Positions 34,755 through 58,205 of a stretch of DNA of 64,000 nucleotides are shown here, piece by piece. The first letter of the stretch is position 1, and the number at the start of each line of letters is the position of its first letter. The notes beneath the pieces were generated by a model. It was given only the letters and a program-made list of their open reading frames with translations, made no database searches and was not told where the DNA came from. The translations under genes were made by a program, and so were the position numbers. Origin of the DNA: Deroplatys truncata (taxonomy: Eukaryota; Arthropoda; Insecta; Mantodea; Mantidae); assembly GCA_030765065.1 (NCBI GenBank), contig CM060986.1, positions 74,021,573 to 74,085,572 on the forward strand. The letters run 5' to 3'.

Positions 34755-36376
34755 ATCTTGACGTTCAAGCCGATTAAAATTAATTGTCGATTGTCCAAGA
34801 CAACGGTATGGCAAACGATCATAATCATAACAATGGTATTATCAACACAGTGATCCTTCCGGCTACTTTATGGGTTTAAACATGATGTGAGGAATGTTGT
34901 TAAGGTCTACTAGAAGTAAGCATTTTTCCACATAATCTTTGAGTCTCTTTCTTTTAATTGACCTGTAAGGAAATTAAAGCATAAACGGATATCATTGCTA
35001 AGAACCAATTTCATCGTGTTTTATTATAATTTTAGGTTATTCAAGCCAGTAATGAAGTGCTTCCCTATCTTAAACCCTGAATTGCAATTTTCACTTGAGC
35101 TTTAAATTGTTGAATTTAAATTTTTAGTTTTCTTACACAAATGTAGCACTAAAGAACGCATTACTAAAATTGTATACTAAATGATGTGTTGTCCTTAATA
35201 CGTTATATACGTATTACGTGTTTAACGAGAAACTATACAAAAAAGAAAAACAAGAGAAGTTCTACAAGCGTGACGTTTGGCAAAGGGGTGGTCTTCGTAG
35301 AACGTAACAGAAAGTGATATGAGGGGAGCTTTTTTTTCTTTCTTCAAAAATTGACAAGCTGCATGATATAATAAATAAAAACTCTGTGAAGGGTACTCTC
35401 AATTGGTATTTGGTCAACATTTTCAAAAAGTTCAAAAATACTTAGGACCTTTAGCTTCAATTACTATGGCGTTTGCTCTTAAATCCTTTTAAAACCTTCA
35501 ACACGTGACCATTTAAATAGCTATGCTGACACGCGCTAATGGTCCGTATTTGATTTCAATGCCTCTTAATCTACTTCGATTTTTCTTACACTTTTGCTTA
35601 TTAAAATGTTCCATACGATGTAGTTTGTAACCAATCTTGTTAAAATTTTCAACAGAAACTCAAAGAGAATGAAGTTAAAAAACCTGGCATATAGTTTTTG
35701 CTACACTTTTAAAATTGTTCAAGATTTATGACATAATTAGTAATTCGACTAGTGAGGATGAATTCTTACGAAATTACATTTAACGTTTAAACCATTTTTT
35801 TAAGTAACCAGATGAGTGAACAAATTTTGTGATTTGTTTATCAGTATTTAGATAATTCGGCAGTAGTTTTCCAAAATTACATAATTGTAGTAGAGCAGCA
35901 TGTGACCAAATTTTGAAAGCATTTGGATGAAAGCTGTAAGATTTAGAATTTTCACCTATGGGTACCCTTGACATCCTCCTCAAATAATGGGTTTTTAGCA
36001 TAGTCACAAGGTATCAGTTGTCACCTTATTGAGTCTACTTTCTTCATCAGTAGCACTAACAGGAAACAATAATTCACGCAAGTGGAGTGCTCAAATTCTT
36101 GGAGAGTGAACTTGTATGTCCTTGTTCCTTCCGGTAAGTCACGATGCTCATTTGTTACTTTGAACGCGATATGCGTCACACTTTTTCATGTTAGCTCATT
36201 ATCATCTTTGGTTCACCGTTGACACCATTCTCAGCATGTCACCTAGTTTTCGCTTTCTACACCAGCATCATTTTATCACATTTTGGTTATTATGCATCCT
36301 TTTCATTATCATCAACTCTGCTTACGTCAAATCACTCTTCCAGCAAGTTCACATATTTTAAAATGAACCGCTCATT
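34755..36376. other. No recognisable feature
   Basis: AT-rich. No protein motif, element end or repeat family match seen. Confidence 0.4.
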
Positions 36377-36438
36377 ATAATCCTTTGGCATTTTAAGCTG
36401 TTACTTCTGGGTTAATAATAACAAGGAGTTGCAAATTA
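36377..36438. repeat. 62-bp direct repeat flanking LTR element (left)
   Basis: Starts ATAATCCTTTGGCATT and ends GGAGTTGCAAATTA, immediately before the left LTR. The same 62 bases follow the right LTR at 41412-41473 without a visible mismatch. LTR-element integrases usually leave duplications of 4-6 bases. Confidence 0.95.
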
Positions 36439-36933
36439 TGCCGCGTACCTCAATAATTATTTGTATTTAATTATTTAACTACAGAAGGGAGCTACTCGCT
36501 GCGAGAGGTATCGTTATTCAAACACAGGAAACTTTAATTTACGAGGCACCGACAAGGGACGCAGCTAAAGTTAAATTCACAAAATATTCTTACACTGACA
36601 TAATTCCTGGCTGAAGGAAGAGGCAAGGATTCTATACTACCATAATTGAAAGTCAAGGAAGAAGATTAATTAGAAGAGATTTATTATAATAACTTACCCA
36701 TGTGTCTGCCAGGACAAGGACGCCATACCGTTGCGCAGTTATCCTTACATGTTTACAACGCGAAGACTAGACACTGACTCTCTCTCGAGAAAACTCGTTA
36801 AGCTTGGCGTCCTAACGCCATATCCCCACCAACAAGACTATTTCCCCTCAAACGCCCCTCCTCGGATAAACTGCCAACCTTCCTTGGGTAACCAGAGGGC
36901 ACCGTTAAAGTTATAATCTGTGCACATGCCACA
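36439..36933 (-). repeat. 3' LTR
   Basis: 495 bp, TG...CA. On the minus strand it contains an ATAATAAATCTC motif that may be the poly-A signal. The 61-codon plus-strand frame inside it is repeated exactly in the other LTR and is not a gene. Confidence 0.9.
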
Positions 36934-36942
36934 TCTCCCCCT
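36934..36942 (-). other. Polypurine tract
   Basis: AGGGGGAGA on the minus strand, directly against the TG of the 3' LTR. This is the expected primer site for second-strand DNA synthesis and fixes the element on the minus strand. Confidence 0.8.
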
Positions 36943-37234
36943 GGCCACCCAAGTCGACGTCCTCGGCGACAGAAAGAATATAAGTACAAAATACAGGAAA
37001 AAGACAAAAGAAAGACATACATAGTGACATGTAGTGACATAAAAGTGACATAGAAATGTGTGATGTAAAATAACAGAGCAATACATATATGGGGTTGCAC
37101 CCAGCCGAAGACAATGGTGCTGGGCGATGAGGCAAGAGAGGAGCGATGTAAGTGCAGTCGACGAAATACTGTTAATGCACTAGCTTTGGCATCCCGCACA
37201 CGCACACACCACGCTGCCTTAGTTCACAGGCACA

Positions 37235-37678
37235 CTACACTGCGCAAAAGGGTGATGAACTGCCGTAACTGTTTGTGGGTGGTTTAGACAGTGCCCACAA
37301 CGACGATTTGTCCTGGTGTAGAATTAGCACCGCAGGTCTCTGGTGATGACAACAGGGTGGGCAGTCGCTGGCTTGGACTGCCCCCCGACATGGTGGCTCC
37401 TTATGCCACGGCAGTGTAGTGGCTGCCCGACAGCTTCCCTGTGGTGTTTCTTGACTCCTGGTGTGCTCTGGGGATGCAGGTGCATCTGCTCGCTCTCTGC
37501 TCAGTGCAATACTAAAACAAAACCACCACACAATAAACAGGATGCTCCCACAAAGAATCACACATAAAAGAAGGGTATGTCCTTTACAATTAAAGATTTT
37601 AAAGTATGAAAAGTGAACACTAAAAATTCTTTTGACATGGGCAAGTAAAGAGAAAAGAAAATTAGAACAAATTGGCAT
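37235..37678 (-). CDS. 147-aa ORF with one membrane segment, in LTR element
   Basis: The ATG frame lies near the 3' LTR on the element's sense strand. Residues about 33-58 form one strongly hydrophobic segment (TLLLCVILCGSILFIVWWFC), followed by a charged, proline/serine-rich tail of about 85 residues. The DNA for the tail is clearly GC-richer than the rest of the element. A single-pass segment followed by a tail just before the 3' LTR is where retroelement envelope genes end, but no envelope motif is visible and an upstream stop closes the frame. It could also be captured sequence or chance. Confidence 0.2.
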   Translation of the reverse strand: MPICSNFLFSLLAHVKRIFSVHFSYFKIFNCKGHTLLLCVILCGSILFIVWWFCFSIALSRERADAPASPEHTRSQETPQGSCRAATTLPWHKEPPCRGAVQASDCPPCCHHQRPAVLILHQDKSSLWALSKPPTNSYGSSSPFCAV

Positions 37679-38596
37679 AAGAAAGAAATTTTACATAGTT
37701 GCCATCCAAAATTGAACTTACAATGCTTCATAAGGCAAATAACAGTAAAACAGACTCAAAATACATAAACATGACAGAAATGAAACATAACCTTATCTTG
37801 GGATCCCAATATTACAACTCAATAACCAGCTGGTATCACTAACAAAAGAAAGTAAGTGCACTTACAAGACAATCACACATGACGACGAAATGAACACATT
37901 CACACTGACCATGGCCACAAATTACACACAACACTGACTTAACTATCTACTCAAACTAGTGCATACATCACTACAAGCTACATCCACAATACATTTCTAA
38001 ACTACGCCACGTGACATGCTTTCAACTACTAGTGTCCTACTCTTGTCATGAATACAATTTGTTGTCCACATCATTGTCTTTCATCGCAGTATGAGCATCA
38101 ACTCAATCATAATCATCATGAACATCATCAGCAGAAATAGTGCAATCTCGATCATTACTTCAAGCATCATCGTCTTTCAATTTTCTCTCCAAAACAAAAC
38201 ATCTGCACTTACATCTCTCATTTAGCATGCTGCAAATTCAAAACATCTGACATAGGCATAACCTTCAAGAAATCACATTAACAATTCAGGAATGACACAA
38301 ATAACATGACACTATAATGTTGCATCTACATCCTCAAAATGAAAATTTAAGCTGGAAAACGGGTGGTATTAACATTTGCTATCTAAGATGGTAATAAACT
38401 TGTTGCATAAACAGAAAAAAAAATTATTTTCATTACATTCACTTCCATCTATTTAATCTCTCGTGTGAATTCATCACACACGCTATACTGGGCACGTTAC
38501 AGCAACACCAATAAGCAAAATCAGTACAATCATCACATCAACTTTCCAGGTACATGTAGCCCTCCTGAAAAATCAACACATTCATACACTTCAACT

Positions 38597-38805
38597 ATCG
38601 GGGTTACACTGTGGCATTTCCACCGAAGCTGACATCATCTCATCTCTTCTCATCTCTCCTCATCAACACCGTCGGGGTTACTCTTTCGCACATCCACCGA
38701 GGCAAATCTCAACTCACATTTCTCACATAACCTCACACTACGCCATCGGGGTTACTCTTACGCACATCCACCGAGGCAAATCTCACCTATATCACATAAC
38801 CTCAA
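38597..38805. repeat. 74-bp tandem repeat, 2.8 copies, in LTR element
   Basis: Units start at 38597, 38671 and 38745, exactly 74 bases apart, each opening with TCGGGGTTAC and sharing GCACATCCACCGAGGCAAAT (the first unit is more diverged). Confidence 0.85.
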
Positions 38806-39212
38806 ATACACACACACATACACACACTATTCATGCAACAAATTTCTGCAAATAAAGATCACAGCATCATTATGGAAATCAAATAGTCAAAATCAAATCG
38901 AGTCATATCATATCAAACCAAATCATATCAAATCAAATCGAATGCAACAAAACAACATCACATCATTATTCAAAACAATATTGTCACATAACATTCCTGA
39001 AAATGAAAGCTCAATTAAGCATATAGTACCCCCGAAACACATTCCTGCAGCATAATACAACAAAACAAATGATTTGCAATTATCAAAACACAATTCAAAA
39101 TTTAGATTACACCCACAATAATAATACACTCGTAATTTAGCAGAGACATTCATATCACATATTCCTGAAAAACAAAGCTTAATTAAGCATCAGTCAGCGA
39201 AACAATAAAAAT

Positions 39213-39401
39213 TTAGCATACCTGTGTGAGTCGTAAAACTGTTTCATTCATCCAAACTTTAGCACTCACAATGTTTACATACTTACGGGTGATTTTTTTC
39301 TTTTCTCTTACTCGTTTACCACAAAATTCTCGTGCAAATTGTCCAAAATCTGGTAACACACGTACAGCTGGTTCATCAACATCCACATCGTACTGGTCCA
39401 T
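39213..39401 (-). CDS. 62-aa acidic-start ORF ending at a splice-donor-like site
   Basis: The frame begins MDQYDVDVDEPAVRVLPDFG and turns basic (K-R-V-R-E-K-K-K). Near its end the minus strand reads ACACAGGTATGC, a good match to a splice donor. A polypyrimidine-AG acceptor-like TTTCAGGGG and another donor-like CATGTAAGT lie just upstream on the same strand (about 39450-39475). It may be an exon of the element or a captured host exon. No family is recognised. Confidence 0.2.
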   Translation of the reverse strand: MDQYDVDVDEPAVRVLPDFGQFAREFCGKRVREKKKITRKYVNIVSAKVWMNETVLRLTQVC

Positions 39402-40895
39402 ATTAGAAGCACATCAAACCTAATTAGGTGCAGATACTGGCAAGGTTGGTAGCCCCTGAAACTTTTACTTACATGAGTAACTGCGATAGATTTTTCCTTA
39501 AAAATATGCATTGCGGAATTAAACCAAACTTGGCAACGGTAAAGCAAAATTATCATCATTCTCAGAGCGGCCAATAGCAGTAGTAGCCAACATTGCAACA
39601 GTCTAAAGTAACTTATACGCTGACAACTCGCTGGAATGCTCCATGTGAGAGGGGTCAATGACCGGCGGCAGCCAGCTGATAACTGAGCAACCAGACGTAC
39701 CAACACTGGACAGATTCCACCACACTGTGCTCGCCAACTGGAGCAACTACTATATCAACTTTCTGTGCAGTACGTCGCTTATGCATGATTGCAGCACAAA
39801 AGATAACGCAACCAATAAACAAACCGTAGGACCAAGCAATTCAGATTACACCACACTAAACACTTATAGCAACACATGAACGTAAGTAGCAAGAGTAGAA
39901 CATAACCAAATAAAACAGTTGCAGAAAGAATACAATTAAGCGCCCGCGGCGAAATATCAGAAAATTAAACTAACACACGGCTACACAAGCCACTTGGACA
40001 CAATACCAAGATTTTTAAGCAGAATGGACATATGGAAGAAAGCCAAAATGATAGCTGCAGTGAGAAACCTCGAACTGGAACTTAAAACTACGTCACACTT
40101 ACTGTGACCACCACGAAGATTCTCAAAAGGAGCAGAATACAAACTTGTAATTTAAACTAGCACACAAAACTTCTCTTTTTTTTTTCTTCTAAAATCAAAT
40201 CTATATAATCTGATATGCACACGCAAAGAAACGCGCCAAAACACGTGCTGAGGAAGACTGGTTTCACAAGCTAAAAATTGTTGCTGAAATGCACGACACG
40301 CGGGAATTACACAACACACGTGCGTACATAAAAGTTACACGAAAAATAACTCAGAAAAGTGCAGTAAATAGCTAGAAATCACAATCACTGGAATATTAAG
40401 TTATACATTTCCAAACCACTGCGAATATGCACAGAAAACAAGATTTGCAAACGGATAGCCAACACGTGACGAGCACATTTGAAAACACCTATCTCGCTCG
40501 TTTCTTCTCAAATTTCACAAAAACATTTTTTTCTTTTTTTTTTTAAATAACCAGCACAAAGAACGGAACACAGTGATATAATTTAAAGGAAATGAAGCCA
40601 AACACAAGGGGAAAATGGAGTAGAAGTTTTTAGCGTCACCCGGCAGACAATGGGAAAATATGCAAAAATGAACTCAAAATTGAAATTTCGACACCAAACT
40701 TTCAGAAATGATGGAAACAAAATTTAGAAGAAGAGAACCACAAATAAAAGTATAAAAATCCTTACCCTTCAGCCAGAAAGAACTTTACATTTTTCACGAC
40801 CACGTGGAGCACAAACCGTTACATTTGGAGGGAAAAAAAAATTTTGCACTTAAAATCTCAAAACAATTCAATTCTACCTGGCGCCCCCCACCAAT

Positions 40896-40913
40896 TTCCC
40901 AGCGACTCCACCA
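40896..40913 (-). other. Primer-binding site
   Basis: Minus strand TGGTGGAGTCGCTGGGAA, three bases inside the 5' LTR. It starts TGG, complementary to a tRNA 3' CCA end. The exact tRNA was not identified. Confidence 0.75.
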
Positions 40914-40916
40914 ATT

Positions 40917-41411
40917 TGCCGCGTACCTCAATAATTATTTGTATTTAATTATTTAACTACAGAAGGGAGCTACTCGCTGCGAGAGGTATCGTTATTCAAA
41001 CACAGGAAACTTTAATTTACGAGGCACCGACAAGGGACGCAGCTAAAGTTAAATTCACAAAATATTCTTACACTGACATAATTCCTGGCTGAAGGAAGAG
41101 GCAAGGATTCTATACTACCATAATTGAAAGTCAAGGAAGAAGATTAATTAGAAGAGATTTATTATAATAACTTACCCATGTGTCTGCCAGGACAAGGACG
41201 CCATACCGTTGCGCAGTTATCCTTACATGTTTACAACGCGAAGACTAGACACTGACTCTCTCTCGAGAAAACTCGTTAAGCTTGGCGTCCTAACGCCATA
41301 TCCCCACCAACAAGACTATTTCCCCTCAAACGCCCCTCCTCGGATAAACTGCCAACCTTCCTTGGGTAACCAGAGGGCACCGTTAAAGTTATAATCTGTG
41401 CACATGCCACA
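40917..41411 (-). repeat. 5' LTR
   Basis: 495 bp, no difference from 36439-36933 found by eye. Confidence 0.9.
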
Positions 41412-41473
41412 ATAATCCTTTGGCATTTTAAGCTGTTACTTCTGGGTTAATAATAACAAGGAGTTGCAAATTA
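41412..41473. repeat. 62-bp direct repeat flanking LTR element (right)
   Basis: Second copy of 36377-36438. The mariner left end starts 10 bases further on. Confidence 0.95.
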
Positions 41474-41549
41474 TATTCGTGCACGAGGGCTGTCCCAGAA
41501 GTACTCGACCTAACAAAGAAAACACAAAATGTTGGGAAAAAAAACATCT

Positions 41550-42900
41550 TTATTTCTCTAGATAGTCTCTTTTCAGCTCGATACACTTTTCCCAGCGATG
41601 TTCAATAGTTTCGATACCCTGTTTACGGTGAGAATCGTCGAGTTCTGCAAAATATCCAACAACTGCAAACTCCAGCTCTTCATTGTTGGCAAATCTTTTA
41701 CCACCAAGCCATTTCTTCAATTTTGGAAACCGAAAATAATCAGAGGGGGCTATATCTGGCGAATAGGGTGCATGAGGGAGCAATTCGAACTTTAACTCAT
41801 TGAGTTTGGCCATGGCGATAATGGATGTGTGAACTGGTGTACTGTCTTGATGAAACAAAACTTTCTTTTTCGCTAAATGCGGCCGTTTTTCCTTGATTTC
41901 ATCATTCAAACGTTGCAATAAGTTTGCATAATACTCGTCATTGATTGCTTTTCCGTTTTGAAGAGAATCAATGAAAATTATCCTACGCGCATCCCAAAAA
42001 ACTGACGCCTTGACCTTGCCTGCAGATAGAACTGCCCTCGTCTTCTTTGGAGCCGATTCTCCCCTTTCAATCCACTGTTTTGATTGTTTCTTCGTCTCAG
42101 GTGTGAAGGATGGACCCATGTTTCATCCATGGTTATGACTCGACGCAAAAACTCGGCTTTATTGCAGCGAAACATCGCCAAACACTCGATTTAAACATCC
42201 TCACGACGCTGCTTTTGTTCCATTGTGAGTAAACGCGGCACCCATCTTGCGCACAGCTTTCTCATGTCTACATTTTCAGTTAGAATGCGATGTACAACAC
42301 TTTTTGAAATTCCTATGATGTCTACTAGCTCGCGCACTTTCAGTCGACAATCATCCAATACCATTTTGTAGATTTTCCTCAATTTCTGCGTGGTCACCTC
42401 ATTTGGTCGACCTGTCGTCCTCCGTGGACTAGTGGTACCGTGCTAGCCTCTAGTTCCCGAGGTCGCGGGTTCAAACCCGGCGGAGGGCGTTGGATTTTTT
42501 CGGGCGTGAAAATCGTTAGCACGGCTTCCTTCGGAAGGGAAGTAAAGCCGGTGGTCCCGTGTCGTAGATTTACGGCACGTAAAAGAACCTCAAGCCTGAT
42601 AAAGAGGCCTCTGAGCAAAATTACAGGTGTTTCACGCCCAATATAGAATGGGACGCTAAGAACCATAGTAGTTAAAGAGCGTCCATAAATAAAAAAAAAA
42701 AAAAAATTTGGTCGACCACTGCGATGTTCATCTTGCGGGCTCGTACGGTCTTGCTTAAACGAAGCCACCCGATATTTTACTGTTGTAAACGAAGGGGCAG
42801 ACTCCTCCAGAGTACAATCTAGCTCAGCATTAATATTAGTTGGACTAAGACCTTTCAAGTGAAAGTACTATATCACATAACGATGACCAGTTTTATCCAT
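41550..42900 (-). pseudogene. mariner transposase pseudogene
   Basis: The probable start ATG at 42900 is followed by a stop at codon 11, then YFHLKGLSPTNINAELD, the N-terminal helix-turn-helix region. SINE1 is inserted after HRSGRPN. The frame resumes with the second helix-turn-helix (LVDIIGISKSVVHRILTE), meets a stop near 42189, then has MDETWVHP with the first catalytic aspartate, a frameshift near 42120, LFHQDSTPVHTS with the second aspartate, and YSPDIAPSDYFRF with the third. The last two are separated by 34 residues, the D34D signature. About 348 codons without the SINE fits the family's usual 345. Two stops, a frameshift and the insertion make it dead, but all three aspartates survive. 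Confidence 0.85.
42413..42705 (+). mobile_element. SINE1, full-length copy inside mariner
   Basis: Reference copy of the family. The tRNA-like head has CCTCCG pairing with CGGAGG, box A GTGGACTAGTGG and box B GGGTTCAAACCC. Then comes the body GGGAAGTAAAGCCGGTGG and the end AAAGAGCGTCCATAAAT plus poly-A. Flanked by a perfect 12-base duplication ATTTGGTCGACC (42401-42412 and 42706-42717). The perfect duplication shows that it is younger than the mariner it interrupts. Confidence 0.9.
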
Positions 42901-57917: not shown

Positions 57918-58205
57918 TCGTCCTCCGTGGTGTAGTGGTTACCATGCTAGCCCATAGATCCCGAGGTAGCGGGTTCAAACACGGCGGAGGGCGATGGATT
58001 TTTTCGGGCGTAAAAATCCTTAGCATGGCTTCCTTTGGAAGGGAAGTAAAGCCGGTGGTCCCGTGTCATTGGTTTACGGCACGTAAAAGAACCTCAAGCC
58101 TGATAAAGAGGCCTCTGAGCAAAATTACCAGTCTTTCACGTCCAATATAGAATGGGACACTAAGGATCACAGCAGTTAAAGAGCGTCCATAAATAAAACT
58201 CAACT
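57918..58205 (+). mobile_element. SINE1, full-length copy inside an older SINE
   Basis: Complete from GTCGTCCTCCGTGG to CATAAATAAAACTCAA. Flanked by an imperfect duplication, TTTTTCCTCTGCTTGGG on the left and TTCTTCCCCTCTGCTTGGG on the right. The interrupted sequence carries a box-B-like GAGTTCGATTTCC at 57880, so it was probably another SINE. Confidence 0.85.

Follow-up and report, generated by a model that had tools for sequence, protein, structure and literature searches.

Structure of the locus

The window analysed was a 64,000-nt stretch of genomic DNA from Deroplatys truncata (GenBank assembly GCA_030765065.1, contig CM060986.1, positions 74,021,573 to 74,085,572 of the forward strand). 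It contains an element of about 5 kb with two long terminal repeats (LTRs), which was assigned to the minus strand by a polypurine tract (PPT)-like and a primer binding site (PBS)-like tract. The element is flanked on both sides by a 62-bp direct repeat, the apparent target site duplication (TSD). The following features were annotated (window coordinates):

36377..36438, no strand: left member of the 62-bp repeat pair, an apparent target duplication, identical to the right copy and flush with the LTR
36439..36933, minus: LTR (3' LTR of the minus-strand element), TG...CA, 495/495 identity to the other LTR
36934..40916, minus: interior, 3983 bp, free of coding domains in the stretches scanned (by stop counts and Pfam)
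36934..36942, minus: PPT-like run AGGGGGAGA next to the left LTR, with purines at 9/9 minus-strand positions
40897..40913, minus: PBS-like tract TGGTGGAGTCGCTGGGA, starting with TGG 3 nt inward of the right LTR
40917..41411, minus: LTR (5' LTR in the orientation of the element), without mismatch to the 3' LTR
41412..41473, no strand: right copy of the 62-bp direct repeat, identical to the left copy; the exact match runs on to 41474

The two copies of the direct repeat (36377-36438 and 41412-41473) were identical at 62 of 62 positions. Each copy was flush with an LTR border, so that the pair abuts both LTR ends with zero spare bases. The LTRs themselves (36439-36933 and 40917-41411) were identical at all 495 positions and had TG...CA ends. 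A preliminary description of this DNA had reported an identical 62-base repeat around an element with classic LTR features (TG...CA ends, identical 495-bp LTRs, PBS and PPT), and all of these were recovered; the assignment of the two tracts to the minus strand is new. The maximal exact repeat was 63 nt (36377-36439 and 41412-41474) rather than 62 nt, because the base that follows the right copy is a T, as is the first base of the LTR's TG. Beyond these 63 nt, mismatches were present on either side (T/A and G/A).

The repeat-flanked structure is real and non-random. A chance repeat was rejected, since the 63-nt flank pair is the second longest exact direct repeat of the 64-kb window, exceeded in length by the LTR pair only, and lies flush with both LTRs. 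No exact repeat longer than 62 nt was present in the window besides these two pairs. A misdrawn LTR border, with the 62 bp being part of the LTR, was likewise rejected: BLASTN placed the 62-mer at the two outer sites of the window only. No further LTR copy was found by BLASTN within the 64-kb window. In collections of viral and prokaryotic sequences, which would not be expected to contain an animal element, the patterns of the LTR ends had 0 exact matches.

For LTR integrases, the preliminary description had given 4-6 bases as the usual target duplication, which is the norm in the surveys cited here. In Drosophila, TSDs of 4 bp were described for the gypsy group and of 5 bp for the Pao group (PMC3276498). 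TSDs deviating from the family mode amounted to 1.8% in the data given there for LTR and terminal inverted repeat (TIR) families together, and were typically 1 bp off; the survey is blind above 20 bp. For 12 plant genomes, TSDs of 4-6 bp are given, and these are the only lengths reported in the relevant part of that study (PMC6911290). The sequence as it stands departs from this norm, as the duplication measures 62 bp and the 62-mer does not begin and end with the same 4-6 nt. A target duplication of 4-6 bp would result if the right 62-bp copy were an assembly artefact.

Strand, interior and age of the element

Two direct TG...CA LTRs enclose PPT-like and PBS-like tracts on one strand, as is found in LTR retrotransposons. 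A run of 9/9 purines stood before 0.6% of positions, and for a plus-strand reading the purine run at the right LTR was 0. The trinucleotide TGG occurred within 8 nt at 7.3% of positions; the PBS-like tract alone is therefore a weak indicator. TGGTGGAGTCGCTGGGA would be predicted to pair with a tRNA-Ala-like 3' end, with the tRNA partner being putative. ARAGORN detected 0 tRNA genes in the window, so that none was available to match the PBS-like tract.

Each of the six frames of the interior contained 59-83 stops, and the longest stop-free stretch was 151 aa. Nine of the 12 stretches of at least 70 aa were submitted to Pfam. None of these nine gave a match above cut-off (one sub-threshold match, E 0.029), and the gag-pol domains of an autonomous gypsy, Pao or copia element (protease, reverse transcriptase, RNase H, integrase) were not found among them. 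Rfam returned 0 matches on 36300-41600. Since no Pfam domain and no stop-free stretch longer than 151 aa were found, the element looks non-autonomous and LARD-like. LARD-type elements are non-autonomous and form multi-copy families mobilised by a related autonomous element. The element described here shares with them the LTRs, the PBS- and PPT-like tracts and a long interior with no recognised coding domains.

The element is young: neither at the 495 LTR positions nor at the 62 flank positions did the copies differ. Taking 1.1e-8 and 2.8e-9 as assumed rates, its age would be at most about 0.24-0.96 million generations.

Strand bias was strong in most of the interior, between 37500 and 40916, with A and C enriched on the plus strand (the AT skew reached +0.35 and the GC skew -0.50). 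At 37000-37750 the GC skew was positive, opposite to the rest of the interior. No coding sequence accounts for the strand bias of the interior. In addition, three diverged 49-nt direct repeats with a spacing of 74 bp were located at 38592-38788, within the interior.

Proposed joining of the element ends 62 bp apart

The reading favoured here, held tentatively and with slightly less than even confidence, is that integrase joined both LTR ends 62 bp apart, followed by fill-in. A recently inserted, non-coding LTR element would have been moved in trans by the integrase of a presumed autonomous relative. Its two cDNA ends would have been joined to opposite target strands at a distance of 62 bp instead of 4-6 bp, and fill-in of the long gaps would then have duplicated the intervening 62 bp.

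Both outer ends of the element stop exactly at TG and CA. The trinucleotide AAT, which separates CA from the PBS-like tract, is missing at the insertion. Exact TG/CA ends and the loss of AAT are as predicted by integrase end-processing. End-joining of unprocessed cDNA was rejected, since it would have kept AAT at the insertion. At the U5 junction, 1 nt was shared between element end and host, and at the U3 junction 0 nt. In a variant in which host polymerase extends one end, short homology is usual at the aberrant end. Given canonical ends together with 0 and 1 nt of homology, joining of both ends by integrase is therefore favoured over extension of one end by host polymerase. We infer that both ends were joined by integrase without coordination between the two events, and that the copies of the 62 bp arose in gap repair.

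Widely spaced nicks with fill-in had been listed in the preliminary description as unusual biology. The proposal fits the sequence and has retroviral precedent (PMC2857682, PMC5041404). It is less unusual than claimed, because large duplications at aberrant retroviral integrations have been described.

Several points weigh against this reading. Such events are rare with normal integrase: 0 of 85 HIV proviruses from peripheral blood mononuclear cells were aberrant in the data given in PMC5041404. Sites of HIV (15/15), MLV (8/8) and SNV (7/7) were all correct in earlier work as cited in the XMRV paper (PMC2857682). The insertion is a single case, and the length of the exact match, 63 nt, coincides with a k-mer size that assemblies have actually used. 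Furthermore, both ends are intact here, whereas the precedents usually had one aberrant end.

Alternative explanations

The main competitor, which we consider quite possible though short of probable, is an assembly artefact. A heterozygous, ordinary insertion with a TSD of 4-6 bp would have been assembled by a de Bruijn graph with k = 63, and the contigs joined with their overlap left untrimmed. Graph assemblers break up a heterozygous insertion, and the resulting contigs overlap by k. The LTR contig would thus be cut where the LTR ends and be followed by the empty-allele contig, which starts with the 63-base branch word. This was evaluated in a toy graph whose input was the LTR with its flanks and 200-nt stubs of the interior; the TSD was postulated to be 4 or 5 bp, and k was 55, 61, 63 and 64. 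In this graph the LTR border was the exact end point of the LTR contig, and with k = 63 the empty-allele contig had its first base exactly where the right copy begins. Only k = 63 reproduced the right junction of the window (two of the eight combinations evaluated), and both borders follow from the k = 63 graph with no added assumption. The maximal exact repeat of 63 nt fits such a join; however, the requirement for k = 63 is built into this match itself. A k-mer of 63 has been in real use, for tobacco with SOAPdenovo, where gap-closing artefacts were filtered afterwards (PMC4024737). False duplications at heterozygous boundaries are documented as well, but those described were mostly separated by a gap (PMC9516828). 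Moreover, the 64 kb contain 0 N, and the young element is complete between its identical LTRs, which suits long reads. A long-read assembly is suggested by these two features, and a k-mer artefact would then not be expected. No second repeat of this kind was present in the window. A wrong join of an empty and an occupied haplotype had already been listed in the preliminary description. In the form of a k = 63 graph of both alleles, it accounts for length and border of the duplication; in the form of an insertion with normal TSD followed by a simple haplotype switch it was rejected, since the target position indicated by the left junction is not the one indicated by the right junction. Under haplotype mixing, therefore, only an overlap-carrying join or two insertions would suffice.

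Two insertions are invoked by a crossover between homologues, which we regard as very improbable. Two copies with normal TSDs would have inserted 57-58 bp apart, and a crossover within the element would have duplicated the intervening sequence. This accounts for flush repeats and canonical ends with an ordinary integrase, and the junction-proximal tetramers ATTA and ATAA consist of A/T only, like the AT-rich target motifs of LTR families (PMC3276498). It needs, however, two independent insertions of the same family in the same orientation within 60 bp. Had two elements of one chromosome undergone unequal exchange, outer LTRs would be left; none were present in the window, and this option was rejected. 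Insertion into a target that was already tandemly duplicated was also among the earlier proposals. A stagger of t bases demands a tandem period of 62-t and identical first and last t bases in the 62-mer. In its exact form with a TSD of 4-6 bp this proposal fails, with 1, 4 and 3 mismatches for t = 4, 5 and 6; the only matching border of the 62-mer is 1 nt. A modified form, with a 4-bp TSD in a 58-bp tandem duplication and one later mutation in a TSD copy, receives the least credence of all explanations considered. For t = 4 the first and last 4 nt (ATAA/ATTA) do differ by one base only. The mutation would have to lie precisely in the TSD, though 495 LTR and 62 flank positions are otherwise unchanged, and the insertion precisely at the centre of the duplication. 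Finally, the element family, or the integrase moving it, might regularly leave long duplications of variable length, which is likewise very improbable. Somatic insertions of three Drosophila LTR families (opus, Tabor and mdg1) had median TSDs of 23, 26 and 25 bp, respectively (PMC8090852), and both the Drosophila TSD survey (PMC3276498) and an LTRharvest run end at 20 bp. Against this, the off-mode share in that survey is only 1.8%, typically with a deviation of 1 bp, within the 20-bp limit, and the somatic report calls its own numbers low and leaves the biological relevance open (PMC8090852). There is a very slim chance that a germline LTR family has an integrase complex which routinely leaves the ends uncoupled and thereby produces long, LINE-like duplications while TG and CA stay intact; with a ceiling of 20 bp, surveys and annotation runs would have overlooked such duplications.

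On the sequence at hand, an assembly artefact and uncoordinated joining by integrase are nearly balanced; the weights given to them, and to the other explanations, are a matter of judgement and not of computation.

If uncoordinated joining is correct, the locus would represent an inherited case in which an LTR retrotransposon integrated in an uncoordinated way and kept both of its ends intact. Its 62 bp would be over three times the 18 nt that PMC7465170 names as the longest TSD on record for LTR elements. Among the literature matches listed (titles and beginnings of abstracts), no inherited LTR-retrotransposon TSD of 62 bp was found, and one may still exist in print. Long duplications are uncountable where the TSD search stops at 20 bp, as in the Drosophila survey (PMC3276498) and in an LTRharvest run, which leaves a blind spot. 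A family-wide long stagger, if true, would be striking. If the right copy is an artefact, the locus would serve as a warning that a duplication of k-mer length can be mistaken for biology when it directly adjoins an LTR.

Neighbouring sequence

To the right of the element, a mariner/Tc1-type transposase stretch was located on the minus strand at 41550-42119 (Pfam Transposase_1, E 3.2e-21); together with the overall character of the window's repeats, it points to an arthropod source. The end-like sequence CGAGGGCTGTCCC, starting at 41484, 10 bp past the right 62-bp copy, is a putative transposon end. A SINE-like repeat with an A-rich tail (42401-42717) lies beside or inside the mariner/Tc1-type transposon copy and is flanked by a 12-bp duplication, ATTTGGTCGACC, at 42401-42412 and 42706-42717. 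Related copies or pieces of the SINE-like repeat were found at about 1170, 2235, 7832, 16450, 24370 and 57914. The longest exact inverted repeat of the window was 62 nt (2297-2358 and 57993-58054) and connects two of the SINE-like copies.

Comparison with known systems

Precedent for long duplications comes more from retroviruses and less from LTR retrotransposons. Among the latter, TSDs of 17-18 bp (two sites) were given for aurora-element and of 13 bp (one site) for rooA in Drosophila (PMC3276498). The Drosophila families with long TSDs resemble the present case in being insect LTR retrotransposons with TSDs above 10 bp. They differ in that their TSDs are below 62 bp and known from few sites each.

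For XMRV, one of 15 integration sites had a 273-bp duplication, for which the authors suggest uncoordinated joining (PMC2857682). In this clone, C-3, as in the window, an integrated LTR element is bordered by a direct repeat that exceeds the usual 4 bp of the virus tens of times. The left LTR of clone C-3 lacks 5 bp including CA at its U3 end, whereas both ends are intact here. Clone C-3 further represents a retrovirus in cell culture, and the present case a non-coding element in a genome.

At aberrant HIV integrations with impaired integrase, duplication of host sequence was the commonest outcome, usually well above 5 bp and reaching hundreds or thousands of bp, and in most cases one end was normal and one aberrant (PMC5041404). 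The host duplication far longer than 5 bp is shared by the locus described here with HIV-1 and ASLV integrations under impaired integrase or with a poor viral end. In those cases one end was aberrant, often truncated, and usually had short homology, none of which was seen here (PMC5041404). With these differences, the structure has a precedent in kind in aberrant retroviral integration.

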